The notes beneath the pieces are model-generated. The model was not told the DNA's origin and did no database searches. It saw only the letters and a list, made by a program, of their open reading frames with translations. 6,724 bases of DNA from Candidatus Fermentibacterales bacterium (GTDB lineage Bacteria; Fermentibacterota; Fermentibacteria; Fermentibacterales; JAFGKQ01), in the NCBI GenBank assembly GCA_016928495.1, contig JAFGKQ010000146.1, positions 1 through 6,724 of the forward strand, given 5' to 3'. Numbering within the stretch: position 1 is the first letter of the stretch; every line of letters begins with the position of its first letter. Of the stretch, positions 664 through 6,724 are shown piece by piece. The translations under genes were made by a program, and so were the position numbers.

Positions 664-2577
664 TTGAGGCTCATCAGGTCCGGGAGAGCCCGCGGTATCG
701 CGGTGGTGCTTGCCGTTCTGGTCGTGATGATGGTCGCGGACCTGGCCCTGGCCCGTGTGGGCGGAGGCCAGCGCTACGGCGGAGGCAGCTCCGGAGGAGG
801 AGGCGGGGGCGGAGACGGTTTCGGGATCATCTTCTACTACCTGATACAGCTTGCCTTCAGGTACCCCGTCGTTGGAGTCCCTCTCCTGATCGTCGCCGTG
901 TTCCTGTTCGTCAAGTTCGGCAAGCACGCGCGCAGCGCCCAGACCGGACACACGATCCAGAGGGCCCAGAGGATGTCCAGGGAGCAGAGCGCCCAGCAGA
1001 GGCAGCGGAACCTGGAGCAGCTCCAGCAGAGGGACCCCGGCTTCCAGGAGCAGGCGTTCGTCGAGAGGATGAACACCGCGTTCCTCAAGCTCCAGGAGCA
1101 CTACTCGAAGCAGGACCTGACCGATGTCGAGGCCCTGCTGTCCGACGGTGTGCGCGAGAGGTTCAGGCTCCAGCTCGAGATGGACCGATCGGAGGGCATC
1201 CGCAATGCGCTCGAGAGCCCCAGGATCCTGTCCTCGAGGATCGTTTCCGTTGGCAGCGACAGGCACTTCGACACGATCCATGTCGAGTTCAAGGCCACGG
1301 GGACGGATGTAGACTACGACCTGAAGACTGGCAAGAAGGTCCGCACCAACACGTCCTCCCCCTTCACGGAGTACTGGAGCTTCATGCGCAAGCCGGGGGC
1401 ACAGACCCTGCAGAAGCCCGGCCTGGTGGAAGGCTTCTGCCCCAACTGCGGGATGCACCTCGAGATGACCGACACGGGCAAGTGTGGAGCCTGCGACTCG
1501 GTCATCACCAGCGGAGAGTACGACTGGGTGCTGACCGAGATAACCCAGGAGATGGAGTGGCAGGCGATATCGGACCCCGCCAGGATTCCCGGCTACTCGA
1601 AGATGGTTCAGCTCGACCCGGGCTTCAGCGTGCAGCACATCGAGGACAGGACATCGGTCATCTTCTGGCGGCTGATGTCCGCCCACTTCCACAACGACCC
1701 GGATGCCATGAGGAAGGTGCTGCACCCAGACTTCATGGCCGAGTACGCACCTCGCCTGAGGAAGCAGCAGGACGGCTCCTGGGTCTACTTCAGGGAGGCA
1801 GCGATAGGCGCGGTCGAGATACAGGCCATCAGGCCGGCGGAGCAGGACGACGGTGTCGACACGGTAGAGGTCCTGGTGAAGTGGTCGGCCCGGAACGCCT
1901 ACAGGGACGGCGAGGGGCGCAGCCGCGGCGCCGGCGACAAGTCCATAAGGCCACAGCTCTACGTCCTTGGCAGGAAGCATGGCGTCACCACCCCCGCGGG
2001 CCAGAGCTTCCGCTCGGCCCACTGCCCGGGCTGTGGTGCCCCGTTCGAGGGAGGAGGGACCGGCAGTTGCGACTACTGCGGAAGGCCCCTTAACGACGGT
2101 TCGCAGGACTGGGTCCTCATGGACGTGCAGAGCTTCTCGGCAAGCCGGATAAGCGCCGAGGCCGGCGGCGGCATCGGGCGGCCCGCCACCGTGCCCTCGG
2201 AGGTCCTGCTGGCCGGGATGGCCGCAGCCATGTTCATAGACGGCAACGTGGACGAGAAGGAAGAGAAGATGCTGCGCGACTTCGCCGCCGCGCGTCAGAT
2301 CAGCGACGAGACGCTCGAGGGCATACTGGCCAGCGTGAGGTCGGGGGAGAACCTGCCGATCCCCTCGACTCCGCAGGAAGCCAGGGAGATACTCGCGGCG
2401 ATGGCCAGGGTCATCCTGGCCGACGGTAAGGTGACGCGGGCAGAGAACAGCATGCTGGTCGCCTACGGCGCGGCAAAGGGCATGACCCCGGCGGACGTCG
2501 GGCTGATACTCAACCAGCAGAAGGTGCTTCTCTACAGGGAGGCGAAGGCTGCCATCAAGTCGATGAAGGGGGCCTGA
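664..2577 (+). CDS. Membrane-anchored protein with two Tim44-like/zinc-ribbon units and a TerB-like C-terminus
   Basis: 637 residues from a TTG start. Order of parts: basic N-terminus and hydrophobic segment 11-30 ending in ALA (signal peptide or anchor); Gly-rich stretch 33-52 beginning RVGGG, as in bacterial Tim44-domain proteins; transmembrane helix about 64-84; charged Gln-rich, possibly coiled segment 90-122; Tim44-like unit 1 (from DPGF at 124) ending in a zinc ribbon, C259/C262/C274/C277; unit 2 (DPGF at 318) with an identical ribbon, C454/C457/C469/C472; and a TerB-like helical domain, about 511-632, with acidic motifs DGNVDEKEE (526) and DGKVTRAEN (587). Tim44-like domains are known for membrane or protein contact, and TerB domains for acidic metal-binding helices. 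The precise role is unknown. If the leader is cleaved, the ribbons and TerB part face the cytoplasm. It diverges from the secreted-protein gene and converges on tyrA with a 23-bp overlap. Domain names come from motif recognition, not a profile search. Confidence 0.88.
   Translation: MRLIRSGRARGIAVVLAVLVVMMVADLALARVGGGQRYGGGSSGGGGGGGDGFGIIFYYLIQLAFRYPVVGVPLLIVAVFLFVKFGKHARSAQTGHTIQRAQRMSREQSAQQRQRNLEQLQQRDPGFQEQAFVERMNTAFLKLQEHYSKQDLTDVEALLSDGVRERFRLQLEMDRSEGIRNALESPRILSSRIVSVGSDRHFDTIHVEFKATGTDVDYDLKTGKKVRTNTSSPFTEYWSFMRKPGAQTLQKPGLVEGFCPNCGMHLEMTDTGKCGACDSVITSGEYDWVLTEITQEMEWQAISDPARIPGYSKMVQLDPGFSVQHIEDRTSVIFWRLMSAHFHNDPDAMRKVLHPDFMAEYAPRLRKQQDGSWVYFREAAIGAVEIQAIRPAEQDDGVDTVEVLVKWSARNAYRDGEGRSRGAGDKSIRPQLYVLGRKHGVTTPAGQSFRSAHCPGCGAPFEGGGTGSCDYCGRPLNDGSQDWVLMDVQSFSASRISAEAGGGIGRPATVPSEVLLAGMAAAMFIDGNVDEKEEKMLRDFAAARQISDETLEGILASVRSGENLPIPSTPQEAREILAAMARVILADGKVTRAENSMLVAYGAAKGMTPADVGLILNQQKVLLYREAKAAIKSMKGA
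1033..1533 (+). repeat. Internal protein repeat, unit 1 (Tim44-like plus zinc ribbon)
   Basis: Residues 124-290 of the membrane protein. The unit opens with DPGF (124-127), continues through a helical Tim44-like part, reaches the ribbon CxxC-x11-CxxC (259-277) and ends at DWVL (287-290). The landmarks recur in unit 2 at an offset of 194-195 residues. The repeat is visible in the protein, not as near-identical DNA, so the duplication is old. Confidence 0.75.
1615..2118 (+). repeat. Internal protein repeat, unit 2 (Tim44-like plus zinc ribbon)
   Basis: Residues 318-485 of the same protein: DPGF at 318-321, ribbon C454/C457/C469/C472 with the same CxxC-x11-CxxC spacing, and DWVL at 482-485. The Cys and DWVL landmarks lie exactly 195 residues after those of unit 1, and DPGF 194 after. 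The middle part differs in sequence between units (for example, WVYFREAAIGAVEIQAI in unit 2 has no close match), so the two copies may bind different partners. Confidence 0.75.
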
Positions 2578-3622
2578 GCCCGAGAGCGTCTGCGGCGCCG
2601 GCGAGCAGCTCTTCCAGCTCTCTTCCGGGCCTGCGGAAGGCATCGAGCACCGTTCCGAAGCTCCCGGCGAGATCATCGAGCGCCCCGGGAACGAACCGGT
2701 TCCGGGCGGCCATGTCGACCAGGAGGTCGGGGCTCTCCGCCACCTGATGGCGCACGAGCTCGAGCAGCAGCCTGGATGATCTTCCCAGCCTTGCCTCATC
2801 GAGCCCGGGAAGTCCTGACCGGCACATCGCCAGGCCGGCGGACAGGAGGACCGCCGGTCTCGTGACCTGGACCCTGGACATCAGCTCATCGTGCTCCTCG
2901 GCAGCCATCCGCACGATCACGAGCTCCCAGGACGACATCAGGCCTTCGACACGGGACACCAGCGCGGGATCGCCTCCACTGCCGCAGAGGAACACCGTCT
3001 CCCCGCGGACCGGCTCCGTCCCGGGCCCGAACATGGGATGGCAGGACAGGAACGACCCCCGGCAGCAACGCTCCAGCACACGCCCGATCGGCTGCTTCAC
3101 CGAGGAGGTCTCCACCAGGATCGAGTCCGCCCGCATCGCTCCGCAGGCCTCCTCTACGACGGCCTCCGCCTGCCGCATGGGCACCGCCACGAAGACCAGG
3201 TCGCTCGATTCGAGCGCTCCGGGAGATGACACCCCCCTGGGAGGATCCAGGACTAGCGTCCTGAGGCCGCTCCCCTCGAGCAGGCGCACCAGTAGCGATC
3301 CCATCGCACCCATGCCTCCGACCACGCAGGCGGTCGCCCTTCCCTGCACCCGCCTGCACATGCCGACCACGAGCCGGAAGACCTCTACCAGATCCCCGGC
3401 GTGGTCCGCAGAGCCAACGCGGTCCCTGACCCGCTCGATTACCTCCCTCTCCCTGTCCGGATCATCCCTGCCTATCCCCAGCAGGTCTTTCTCCCGCCCG
3501 ATCCTCCTCGCCAGCGCCGCCCTCTCGTTCAGGAGCGAGAGCAGCCAGGTGTCGACCTCGTCTATTCGCCGTCTGAGCTCCGCAATTGCCGTCTCACCAC
3601 GATCCGCCACTTGTACTCCCAT
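2555..3622 (-). CDS. tyrA: Bifunctional chorismate mutase / prephenate dehydrogenase (T-protein)
   Basis: Converts chorismate to prephenate and then, by NAD-dependent oxidative decarboxylation, to 4-hydroxyphenylpyruvate, the tyrosine precursor. I chose ATG at 3622 (355 residues), where AAGGAG lies 8 nt upstream. The frame stays open to 3694 but the extra 24 codons are Gly/Pro/Ala-rich, cross the hairpin and have no family match. AroQ mutase domain about 11-95: ELRRRIDEVD at 15-24, R34, K45, DPDRE at 54-58. Dehydrogenase domain: Rossmann GGMGAMG (102-108), D126 after the second strand (suggesting NAD rather than NADP), SSVK (173-176), HPMFGP with catalytic-type H195 (E. coli TyrA H197), EHD at 243-245, and a helical C-terminal region that aligns by eye with E. 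coli TyrA to near the end. Length is close to E. coli TyrA (373). No ACT domain is present. It is last in the operon and overlaps the convergent gene by 23 bp. Confidence 0.94.
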   Translation of the reverse strand: MGVQVADRGETAIAELRRRIDEVDTWLLSLLNERAALARRIGREKDLLGIGRDDPDREREVIERVRDRVGSADHAGDLVEVFRLVVGMCRRVQGRATACVVGGMGAMGSLLVRLLEGSGLRTLVLDPPRGVSSPGALESSDLVFVAVPMRQAEAVVEEACGAMRADSILVETSSVKQPIGRVLERCCRGSFLSCHPMFGPGTEPVRGETVFLCGSGGDPALVSRVEGLMSSWELVIVRMAAEEHDELMSRVQVTRPAVLLSAGLAMCRSGLPGLDEARLGRSSRLLLELVRHQVAESPDLLVDMAARNRFVPGALDDLAGSFGTVLDAFRRPGRELEELLAGAADALGLRPPSST

Positions 3623-3630
3623 CTCCTCCG

Positions 3631-3636
3631 CTCCTT
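3631..3636 (-). promoter_or_regulatory. Ribosome binding site deciding the tyrA start
   Basis: AAGGAG on the minus strand, 8 nt before ATG at 3622-3620. A second GGAGGAG directly touches the ATG and is too close to serve it. That one, or GGGAG at 3620-3616, could instead serve a GTG four codons inside (3610-3608), so a start four codons shorter cannot be excluded. Confidence 0.6.
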
Positions 3637-3663
3637 CCGTTCGATATCCCCCAGGACGCGGAA

Positions 3664-3691
3664 GGGCCGCGGGCACTCCTGCCCGCGGCCC
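3664..3691 (-). terminator. Perfect 12-bp GC hairpin between aroC and tyrA (attenuator, weak terminator or processing element)
   Basis: 3664-3675 (GGGCCGCGGGCA on the plus strand) is the exact reverse complement of 3680-3691, with a 4-nt loop (GGAG as read in the operon transcript). It lies about 33 nt after the aroC stop and about 40 nt before the tyrA start. No U-run follows on the operon strand (TTCCGCG) or on the other strand (CCACCTC), so it is not a canonical intrinsic terminator, although the stem is very stable. Partial termination, transcript stabilisation or an RNA-processing role fits the position. The stem is certain from the sequence. The function and the 'terminator' label are guesses. 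Confidence 0.55.
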
Positions 3692-3724
3692 CACCTCACG
3701 CTCCGGATCGCCGCTAGTCGGGGA

Positions 3725-4885
3725 TCATGTGCCCCCGATCGCAGGCAGCCGCCCGAAGCCGCGGGCGGGCAGCGGGCCTCCGGGGTATCGGCTGTCCCTG
3801 TTCATGATGCCGGAGAGAAGCTCCGCCGGACACACCTCGGTCATGCGCTGTAGCACGCTGTCCGCAGCAACCAGGGCAGCCATGGCCTCCGCGACCGGAC
3901 CGATCCTGGGGCACAGGAAGGGATCGTGTCTTCCCTTCACGGAGATGGAGGCCTCCTTCCCGGTCAGGTCGATCGTGCTCTGAGGCACGGCTATGGAGGG
4001 CGTGGGCTTCACGGCAAGCCTCATCGACACTCTCTGTCCGGTGGAGACACCTCCCAGTATGCCTCCGCAGCGGTTGCTCACCGGCCCGTCCGCCGAGAGC
4101 TGGTCATTGGCACTGCTGCCGCTCATCCGGGACAGCTCGAAGCCCGACCCGAACTCGATTCCCTTCACGGCGCCGATGGAGAGCATCGCGCCTGCAAGGC
4201 AGGCATCCAGCCTGCCGAACACGGGGGACCCCAGGCCGGAAGGCAGCCCGTCCACGAAGACCCCGACGATGCCGCCTACCGAGTCGCCCCCGGCTACGGC
4301 ATGGTCCACCCGGCTTTCCATCGCAGCCAGCACCGCCTGGTCGGGACACCGCAGAGGGTTGGTCCCGGCAAAGTCCAGATCGAGACACCCTGCCTCCACC
4401 TCGCCCGCCGCGAGCGTGCAGGATCGTATCGATACTCCGAAGCCGGCAAGGAAGCACCTCGCCACGGCTCCTGCGGCCACCCGGCCCACGGTCTCGCGGC
4501 CCGAGGACCTTCCGCCCCCGGGCGGCGGCGCGGAACCGTACTTCAGGAAATGCCCCAGATCGGCGTGTCCCGGTCTCAGAAGCCCCTCTATCGAGTCGTA
4601 GTCGCCGCTGCGCGCGTCCTCGTTCGCCACGACGAGGGCTATGGGCGATCCAAGCGTCATGTCACCGGGGCCCAGGCCCGACAGCACGCTCACCAGATCC
4701 GCTTCGCGCCTGCCGGAGGAGAAGCGGGACCTTCCCGGCCTCCTGCGGTCGAGGTCCGACTGAATCGAGCAGAGAGGGACCCGGACTCCCGCCGGGACTC
4801 CGTCCACGACCGCGCCGACAGCTCTGCCGTGTGACTCGCCGAAGGTGGTGACCCTGAGGTAGTGCCCGAAGCAGCTTCCGGTCAT
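3725..4885 (-). CDS. aroC: Chorismate synthase
   Basis: Seventh shikimate step: EPSP to chorismate, using reduced FMN, in the cytoplasm. The start is ATG at 4885 (386 residues), because family similarity begins at once (FGHYLRVTTFGESHG). The frame is open upstream to 5077, but that stretch lies inside aroA and has no family match. Seen: GESHG 16-20 with H19, DLDRRRPGRS 44-53, RPGHADL 104-110 with H107 (the family's two catalytic His), GRSSGRET 125-132, GDSVGG 200-205, AVKGIEFG 239-246, GGILGG 274-279, KPTPSI 293-298, RHDP 319-322 with D321. Odd: after KYG (115-117), where most homologues have an RDxR-like motif, this protein reads SAPPP. The rest of the FMN/EPSP pocket looks intact. It starts one base after the aroA stop. 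A hairpin-bearing spacer separates it from tyrA. Confidence 0.96.
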   Translation of the reverse strand: MTGSCFGHYLRVTTFGESHGRAVGAVVDGVPAGVRVPLCSIQSDLDRRRPGRSRFSSGRREADLVSVLSGLGPGDMTLGSPIALVVANEDARSGDYDSIEGLLRPGHADLGHFLKYGSAPPPGGGRSSGRETVGRVAAGAVARCFLAGFGVSIRSCTLAAGEVEAGCLDLDFAGTNPLRCPDQAVLAAMESRVDHAVAGGDSVGGIVGVFVDGLPSGLGSPVFGRLDACLAGAMLSIGAVKGIEFGSGFELSRMSGSSANDQLSADGPVSNRCGGILGGVSTGQRVSMRLAVKPTPSIAVPQSTIDLTGKEASISVKGRHDPFLCPRIGPVAEAMAALVAADSVLQRMTEVCPAELLSGIMNRDSRYPGGPLPARGFGRLPAIGGT

Positions 4886-4886
4886 G

Positions 4887-6188
4887 TCATCCCTCCAGGA
4901 GGGCTTCCAGCGCCTCCGCGAACCGCGGATAGGAGACGGCAACGCTCTGCTCGCCGGCGATGCTGCGGAACTCCGACCCGGCGAGGAGTGATGCCACGGA
5001 GAGGGCCATCGCGATCCGATGATCCGACCCAGAGGACAGACCGGCGCAGGGAGAGAGCCGGCAGGGCCCCTCAACAACGAGGTCGTCTCCCTCCGCGTGG
5101 ATACTGGCTCCCATCCTGCCGAGCTGACCGCAGATCGCCCCCAGCCTGTCCGACTCCTTGACCCGCAGCTCCCCCAGCCCCTTGAAGAGAGTCCGTCCTC
5201 TGGCCTGGCTGGCGACCAGCGCGAGCACCGGGATCTCGTCGATCATGGAGGGGACCTCGCGGGACGCGACCGTGCAGCCACGAAGGCCGATCCGGCTGCC
5301 GGAACGGACCCGGATGGCCCCGTGAGGCTCCGGGTAGTAGCCGGACAGGCTGACGGAGACGTCTGCGCCCATTCTCCTTAGCACTCTGAGGAATCCGGTC
5401 CTCGATGGACTAAGCAGCGCGTTGGGCACGCTCACCTCACTGTCCGGCAGGACCGCGGCAGCGCACAGCAGGAAGGCTGCCGAGGATGGGTCTCCCGGCA
5501 CCCTGAGCCCCGATGGCATCCTCAGATCGCTCCTCGAGACGCTGCAGCTCCTGCGTCCTCTCCTGACCACCTCCGCCCCGAAGATCTCCAAAAGGCGCTC
5601 CGTATGGTCACGGCTCTCGTGCTGCTCCACGACCGTGGTGCTCCCACCCTCCGCCTGTGCCCCTGCGAGCAGGACGGCACTCTTCAACTGGGCACTGGGC
5701 ACCGGAGTGGCGAACTCCGGGAGACACCTCGGGGGCGAGCAGCCGCGGATGCTCACCGGGCAGCAGCCGTTGATGCAGTCGATCGAGGCTCCCATTCTCG
5801 CGAGAGGCTCTGCCACCCTTGCCATGGGCCGTCGTCTCAGCGAGGAGTCGCCGTCGAGCATGAAGCTGCCGGGAGCACCGGTCAGCACGCCCATGAGAAG
5901 CCTGATGGTCGTGCCGGAGTTGCCGCAGTCCACTCTCGCGCAGTCCGGCATCCGACCGGCTGCGCCCCTTACGAGCAGGGCCCCTCCTCGAAGGGTGGAG
6001 ACCTCGCCCCCGAGGGCCCGCACGGCCTCCGCGCTGGAGCAGACATCGACGCAGGGAGACAGGTTATGCACGACGGACTCCCCGGTAGCCAGGAGCGACA
6101 TGAGCAGCACCCTGTGGGAGATCGACTTGTCTCCCGGGACCTCGACCGCTCCGCGAAGCCTGAGCGAGGTGAGCGCGCAGGTGCTCAC
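4887..6188 (-). CDS. aroA: EPSP synthase (3-phosphoshikimate 1-carboxyvinyltransferase)
   Basis: Sixth shikimate step: shikimate-3-phosphate plus PEP to EPSP. 433 residues from GTG at 6188, the usual family length. Two-domain fold with the expected residues: GDKSISHR 19-26 (K21, S22, R26), GNSGTTIRL 89-97, RRRP 118-121, [13 protein letters not shown] 164-176, [10 protein letters not shown] 191-200, PGDPSSAAF 231-239, catalytic-type D317 in MIDEIP and E345 in KESDR, DHRIAMA 389-395, and VSYPRF 418-423 near the end. GNSGTTIRL and VSYPRF are closer to the Bacillus-type enzyme than to E. coli AroA, which has NAGTAMR at the first of these. Translation is coupled at both ends: GTGA shared with the upstream DAHP synthase stop, and one base between its TGA and the aroC ATG. 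Confidence 0.96.
4891..4896 (-). promoter_or_regulatory. Ribosome binding site of aroC, inside the end of aroA
   Basis: GGAGGG on the minus strand lies in the last codons of aroA and 5 nt before the aroC ATG at 4885. Ribosomes ending aroA at 4889-4887 would sit on it, which supports translational coupling and the 4885 start. Confidence 0.7.
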
Positions 6189-6724
6189 GGCCTCACCTCC
6201 TCTCCCACTGCCCCGTGAACGCGGGACGCCAGCTCCATCAGCCTCTCGAAACCCCGCGAGTCGAGCGTCTGCATCCCGTCGGAGAGCGCCCTGTCAGGGT
6301 CAGGGTGGACCTCCACCATCAGCCCGTCCGCTCCCGCGGCCACTGCCGCGAGCGCCGAGGGCACGACCAGCTCCCTGCGCCCGGTCGCGTGACTCGGGTC
6401 GACGATCACCGGAAGGTGGGTGAGGCCTCGGAGCAGCGGCACCACCGAGATGTCGAGAGTGTTCCGGGTCGCCGTCTCGAAGGTGCGTATGCCCCTCTCG
6501 CACAGGACGACGCTGCCGTTGCCGCGGGCCAAGATGTACTCGGCGGCGAGCAGCAGCTCGGTGACCGTCGCGTTCATTCCCCGCTTGAGCAGGACGGGCC
6601 TGTCGGTCTCACCGACGGCTTCCAGCAGCGAGTAGTTCTGCATGTTGCGGGCACCTATCTGCAGCATGTCCGCGTACCTGCCTACCAGAGGGACGTCCTC
6701 AGGGCACAGCACCTCCGTAACAAC
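6185..6724 (-). CDS. aroF: DAHP synthase, C-terminal half (N-terminus beyond window)
   Basis: First shikimate step: PEP plus erythrose-4-phosphate to DAHP. 179 codons are visible with no start, and the frame is open to the window edge. Motifs of the AroF-type (Thermotoga/Bacillus-like) family: [11 protein letters not shown] 21-31, LLKRG 45-49, [10 protein letters not shown] 74-83, TRNTLDIS 86-93, VDPSH.TGRR 108-117, VEVHPDP 137-143, ALSDG 146-150. H112, E138 and D149 have exactly the spacing of the metal ligands His272, Glu298 and Asp309 of Thermotoga maritima DAHP synthase, so about 160 residues are missing and the full protein should be near 338-340. The first metal-binding Cys and any N-terminal regulatory ACT-like or fused mutase domain lie outside, so the feedback type cannot be judged. 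The GTG at 6712 is internal, not the start. The stop overlaps the aroA start. The symbol denotes the family, not a specific isozyme. Confidence 0.93.
6193..6200 (-). promoter_or_regulatory. Perfect ribosome binding site of aroA
   Basis: GGAGGTGA, fully complementary to the usual 16S 3' end, ends 4 nt before the GTG start at 6188-6186. It lies inside the last codons of the DAHP synthase gene and compensates for the GTG start, making aroA probably well translated. Confidence 0.8.

Follow-up and report, generated by a model that had tools for sequence, protein, structure and literature searches.

A conserved membrane protein with duplicated Tim44-like and zinc ribbon units and a TerB domain, a putative SPFH anchor in Fermentibacterales

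The window analysed here, i.e. the whole stretch of 6,724 nucleotides (positions 1 to 6,724 of contig JAFGKQ010000146.1, Candidatus Fermentibacterales bacterium, assembly GCA_016928495.1), contains an open reading frame for a Tim44-TerB protein of 637 amino acids at 664-2577 on the forward strand. The frame starts with TTG, and a GGAGG sequence resembling a ribosome-binding site (653-657, +) lies six nucleotides 5' of the start codon. Orthologues of the same length are present in the order. Divergent from this gene is the start of a Trp/Tyr-rich secreted protein (2-496, −) with the signal peptide MRRWLVAMSLLAASAAPALA, which is cut by the contig end. The other flank is occupied by a shikimate/tyrosine cluster (2555-6712, −) coding for a DAHP synthase (cut by the contig end), an EPSP synthase, a chorismate synthase and a chorismate mutase-prephenate dehydrogenase fusion, and the gene of the fusion protein converges on the Tim44-TerB gene, the ends of the two overlapping by 23 nt. 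We considered these downstream genes (tyrA, aroC, aroA and aroF) as partners but treated them as unrelated, because they are on the opposite strand and because the neighbours of the relatives are different ones, namely LarA, a histidine kinase, a response regulator-PglZ protein, TsaE and TsaB. In the order, a conserved block lies upstream of the Tim44-TerB gene in divergent orientation; it includes the gene for a response regulator-PglZ fusion (L108:12083-13636, +, and syntenic loci), that for a histidine kinase, tsaE and tsaB.

The amino-terminal region of the protein has two hydrophobic stretches (residues ~9-30 and ~55-84) that are separated by a Gly-rich stretch. Hydropathy and the family alignment delimit the leader, or first hydrophobic helix, to residues 12-30 (697-753, +); four basic residues precede it, and it ends with ALA, followed by RVGGG, in which R31, G33, G34 and G35 are invariant. 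The Gly-rich stretch (residues 31-54; 754-825, +) is retained across the family. It is followed by the membrane helix (residues 55-84; 826-915, +), as judged from hydropathy and charge count, and by a segment (residues 85-115) with seven Lys/Arg versus one Asp/Glu. The leader with Arg, the Gly-rich stretch and the membrane helix resemble those of bacterial Tim44 proteins. Further downstream, the motif DPGF occurs at residues 124 and 318, and DWVL follows each of two zinc ribbons, at residues 287 and 482. The ribbons have the patterns CPNC-x11-CGAC (residues 259-277; 1438-1494, +; C259-x2-C262-x11-C274-x2-C277) and CPGC-x11-CDYC (residues 454-472; 2023-2079, +; C454-x2-C457-x11-C469-x2-C472). 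Two DGxV..E motifs lie in the carboxy-terminal domain, DGNVDEKE at residues 526-533 (2239-2262, +) and DGKVTRAE at residues 587-594 (2422-2445, +). The leader, Gly-rich stretch, membrane helix, repeated motifs, ribbons and DGxV..E motifs had been listed in an earlier sequence-only reading, and each was verified. From the charge around leader and membrane helix, it is most likely that the Tim44-ribbon-TerB part lies on the cytoplasmic side, in a compartment that keeps zinc ribbons reduced and stable; the positive segment after the helix and the eight conserved ribbon cysteines lend support to this orientation, which the same reading had proposed.

The protein matches the Pfam Tim44 profile (PF04280) in two stretches with an E-value of 4.6e-25 and 88.9 bits against a cut-off of 29.6. 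The canonical copy, domain 1, comprises residues 112-247 (997-1404, +; Tim44/mL45 fold with Z 13-14), whereas the divergent Tim44/NTF2-like domain 2 comprises residues 318-445 (1615-1998, +), as delimited by the internal alignment and the second PF04280 stretch. The second copy on its own reaches 25 bits, i.e. below the cut-off in the window protein, but it exceeds the cut-off in four relatives. An alignment of unit 1 with unit 2 yielded a score of 121, while 500 shuffles averaged 29 and did not exceed 46; the duplication of the Tim44-ribbon unit is far above chance. An AlphaFold2 model computed from 23 sequences (mean pLDDT 76) is of high confidence in both Tim44-like domains and of lower confidence in ribbons and leader. 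In structure comparisons, residues 112-299 of the model resemble Tim44 of human and yeast as well as mL45 (Z 13-15), and domain 1 shows the fold of the Tim44 C-terminal domain when compared with human Tim44 (2cw9; Z 13.7, rmsd 3.6, 158 aligned residues). Residues 314-497 match NTF2-like proteins with Z ~10.

Zinc-ribbon Pfam models, among them those of the DZR type, also match the window protein, and Tim44, TerB and the double zinc ribbon were each detected in all 23 family members at E ≤ 0.01. In the alignment of these 23 sequences the eight ribbon cysteines are invariant, as are the Asp and Glu residues of both DGxV..E motifs (D526 and E533; D587 and E594, as well as G588). The four CxxC pairs, including those of ribbon 2, are retained in eight distant Planctomycetota orthologues that were checked singly.

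Given that domain 1 is structurally closest to Tim44 and the mitoribosomal mL45, one could envisage that the Tim44-like domains serve as docking sites at the membrane for ribosomes, chaperones or translocons and thereby aid membrane-protein insertion, as would be expected for a protein of the TimA/mL45 type, with ribbons that bind RNA or the ribosome. The NCBIfam Tim44/TimA adaptor model (NF033779) is indeed matched with an E-value of 6.6e-18, but the score of 65.4 bits is below the cut-off of 80, and the TimA equivalog model reaches 26.2 bits against a cut-off of 200. Moreover, the common NTF2-like fold says little about function, and no gene for translation or Sec/YidC stood out as a constant neighbour; the genomic context points to SPFH and TPM. 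We consider a role of this kind unlikely.

The carboxy-terminal domain (residues 505-637; 2176-2574, +) is TerB-like. In the window protein the TerB profile (PF05099) gives 19.4 bits against a cut-off of 24.4 (E 0.0014); Planctomycetota orthologues score 28.6 and 33.8 bits, above the cut-off, and the best E-value among the 23 family members is 4.7e-10. A profile of the domain matches 2ou3 and 2h5n at 1e-4, and motif 1 aligns with the DG..E of 2ou3. The TerB part of the full-chain model resembles 2ou3 with Z 12.4. When folded alone, the domain has the TerB fold (Z 12.1, rmsd 3.6 and 133 aligned residues with 2ou3), followed by 2h5n with 7.2 and unrelated structures at about 5. The architecture proposed from sequence, an anchor followed by two Tim44-like domains with a ribbon each and a TerB-like domain, is thus borne out by profile and structure searches: residues 120-490 are Tim44-like and duplicated, the C-terminus is TerB-like, and the AlphaFold2 models back both Tim44/NTF2 domains as well as TerB.

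TerB is predicted to be a regulatory module, probably metal-binding or metal-responsive. It is decidedly improbable, however, that the protein is a membrane component of a Ter-type tellurite or metal-stress response in which TerB serves as sensor and effector, with no link to SPFH. While the invariance of both acidic motifs is in favour of such a role, a profile search detected TerD in none of the 42 genomes of the order, so that the link to metal stress (Ter) drawn in the sequence-only reading has no support from gene content, and TerB-less relatives retain the rest of the protein.

The Tim44-TerB protein is universal in the order, with members in 42 of 42 genomes (that of the window and 41 relatives), all of them draft assemblies in which some copies end at contig edges; in each genome it is the sole Tim44 protein according to PF04280. 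Outside the order, the full architecture was detected in 19 of the 294 Planctomycetota sampled as well as in a few further lineages (families f33, f31 and f121). A short form that consists of two Tim44-ribbon units without TerB, often encoded by tandem genes, is found in 22 of the 294 Planctomycetota and elsewhere, and single-unit forms exist in other lineages, e.g. Monoglobus. Viral contigs yielded no match, and among plasmids Monoglobus was the only one. The earlier reading knew of no described system with this duplicated layout. Our searches add that the arrangement is not singular but defines a conserved family, patchily distributed outside the order. None of the literature found combines Tim44 with TerB and a zinc ribbon, an earlier description of a Tim44-TerB fusion being possible, and none of it combines Tim44-like domains with SPFH.

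A tree was built from 79 units. In it, each of the two units of the full form makes up one group, with members from both the order and Planctomycetota. Therefore, either the duplication is older than the split of these lineages or the gene was transferred as a whole. Single units and the C-terminal unit of the short form cluster with the canonical unit 1; the canonical copy comes first in the full form and last in the short form. The tree is unrooted and compatible with a single duplication as well as with independent ones.

In several lineages the short form is located 3' of a gene for a TPM-domain protein. Three Planctomycetota loci (L100, L101 and L078) have tandem paralogous two-unit genes without TerB, also after a TPM-domain gene. 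In the order, profile searches detected PspA in 0 of 42 genomes and the TPM domain likewise in 0 of 42, the Pfam profile being one that divergent TPM proteins could escape. The idea that TerB replaces TPM had no statistical support (full form versus TPM, p 0.42; short form, p 0.14), again with a profile that may miss divergent members.

In 11 neighbourhoods of genus g8, the stop codon of the Tim44-TerB gene lies within a 4-nt overlap with a downstream gene for a PLD-like protein (PLDc_2, 1.9e-17), and the two genes probably form a translationally coupled pair. The PLD-like protein has 173 amino acids and a C-terminal Cys cluster (L041:5486-6004, −, and other g8 loci). A phospholipid-linked scaffold that works with this PLD-like enzyme is nevertheless highly improbable, since no such gene was found beside the Tim44-TerB gene, either in the window or in the searches of the other genera. 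An in-frame TGA in g8 was also considered as a selenocysteine codon and rejected, because it is the gene's own stop and is followed by a second TGA.

Comparison of relatives and their gene neighbours, which the sequence-only reading had suggested, revealed an SPFH (Band_7_1) zinc-ribbon protein as the informative partner, encoded elsewhere in the genome of the window. In two Planctomycetota, the full-length gene lies directly 3' of an SPFH gene on the same strand. The open reading frames overlap by ~28 nt in one of them (L165), and a gap of 65 nt separates the genes in the other (L166); the SPFH protein of the latter (L166:4998-6128, −) has a GYF_2 domain instead of C-terminal zinc ribbons. 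In Monoglobus, an SPFH Band_7_1 zinc-ribbon gene lies 15 nt 3' of the single-unit gene. Of the 41 Planctomycetota genomes with a Tim44-ribbon gene, 40 gave strong Band_7_1 matches, including 19 of 19 with the full architecture, versus 85 of 253 without (Fisher p 5e-16, a value that ignores kinship, for a domain that is common). In the order, 36 of 42 genomes have a strong Band_7_1 match, and the six others are 66-89% complete. The genome of the window itself (G000) encodes a Band_7_1 protein with C-terminal zinc ribbons on a different contig (C218, about 11,700-12,900); in this order the SPFH gene is not adjacent to the Tim44-TerB gene. At all five order loci inspected (L159 and L160-L163; e.g. 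L160:5714-6259, −) a conserved protein of ~175 amino acids is encoded directly upstream of the SPFH zinc-ribbon gene. It has the motif MSEGR..LEKAxRLxPGYKGYKxKEERRDND and no significant Pfam match.

On the basis of this gene context, we moderately favour the Tim44-TerB protein as a putative membrane anchor or adaptor of an SPFH membrane-integrity complex. The protein would be held in the inner membrane by one or both of its N-terminal helices, leaving the remainder in the cytoplasm. Like Tim44 and mL45, both Tim44-like domains might sit at the membrane face, with lipid or a partner as ligand, while ribbons and Tim44-like domains together could provide a docking platform for a soluble SPFH protein with C-terminal zinc ribbons of its own. 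Through its two DGxV..E sites, TerB may bind a divalent cation or a protein and adjust this assembly in response to envelope or metal stress. Neither PspA nor a TPM-domain partner would take part in the complex of these bacteria. A more far-reaching version of this scenario is tentative and rather doubtful: a PspA-free system, present in the whole deep-branching order and in parts of the Planctomycetota, in which the protein with its double Tim44-ribbon unit and TerB recruits and gates an SPFH zinc-ribbon scaffold and replaces both PspA and TPM.

Zinc-ribbon SPFH proteins of the YdjI type are found in many bacteria and some archaea, and we found no account, outside Bacillus, of how they are kept at the membrane. 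With a distribution that follows such proteins across phyla, the Tim44-ribbon family represents a concrete and directly testable candidate anchor. The Tim44-type fold, familiar from mitochondrial import and mitoribosome docking, would appear in another setting of membrane recruitment, and the lineage would maintain its membrane without PspA.

Among known proteins, those of the Tim44 family (PF04280; mitochondrial Tim44, mL45 and bacterial TimA) share with the Tim44-TerB protein a domain 1 above the Pfam cut-off and the fold of the Tim44 C-terminal domain, whereas two copies, a ribbon on each and the C-terminal TerB set it apart, as do scores below the NCBIfam TimA cut-offs. TerB (COG3793, 2ou3) and PG1108 (2h5n) are alike in fold and DG..E motifs; here, the domain is fused to a membrane Tim44-ribbon protein in an order without TerD. 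A Clostridia TIM44-like protein (Monoglobus WP_320691497) has the leader, Gly-rich stretch, transmembrane helix, Tim44 domain, ribbon, NWVL and an SPFH zinc-ribbon neighbour, but one unit only and no TerB. In B. subtilis, recruitment of PspA and of the SPFH protein YdjI to the membrane requires two membrane proteins, YdjG and YdjH, and cells that lack either of these two mislocalise cell-wall synthesis when exposed to alkaline stress (PMC8581546). YdjG consists of zinc ribbons, an NTF2-like domain and a transmembrane segment, and YdjH of a TPM domain (PMC11237479). The YdjG-YdjH-YdjI/PspA complex and our family thus have in common a membrane protein with zinc ribbon and NTF2-like domain, the link to SPFH and, in relatives, a TPM gene. 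However, the ribbons of YdjG precede the NTF2-like domain, no TerB has been described in YdjG, and the order of the window is devoid of PspA and TPM. As B. subtilis has no PF04280 match and YdjG escapes the Tim44 profile, the likeness described here is one of kinds of parts, and homology to YdjG is at best conjectural. The comparison suggests that the protein anchors a hitherto undescribed complex related to PspA-Ydj of the Bacillus envelope-stress response, and the best reading is that it would work like YdjG-YdjI, yet without PspA. Since it is made of the same kinds of parts as YdjG, the NTF2-like fold being present in its Tim44 version, and its relatives have the same types of partners, a role as anchor or adaptor of an SPFH scaffold appears to be the most economical interpretation.
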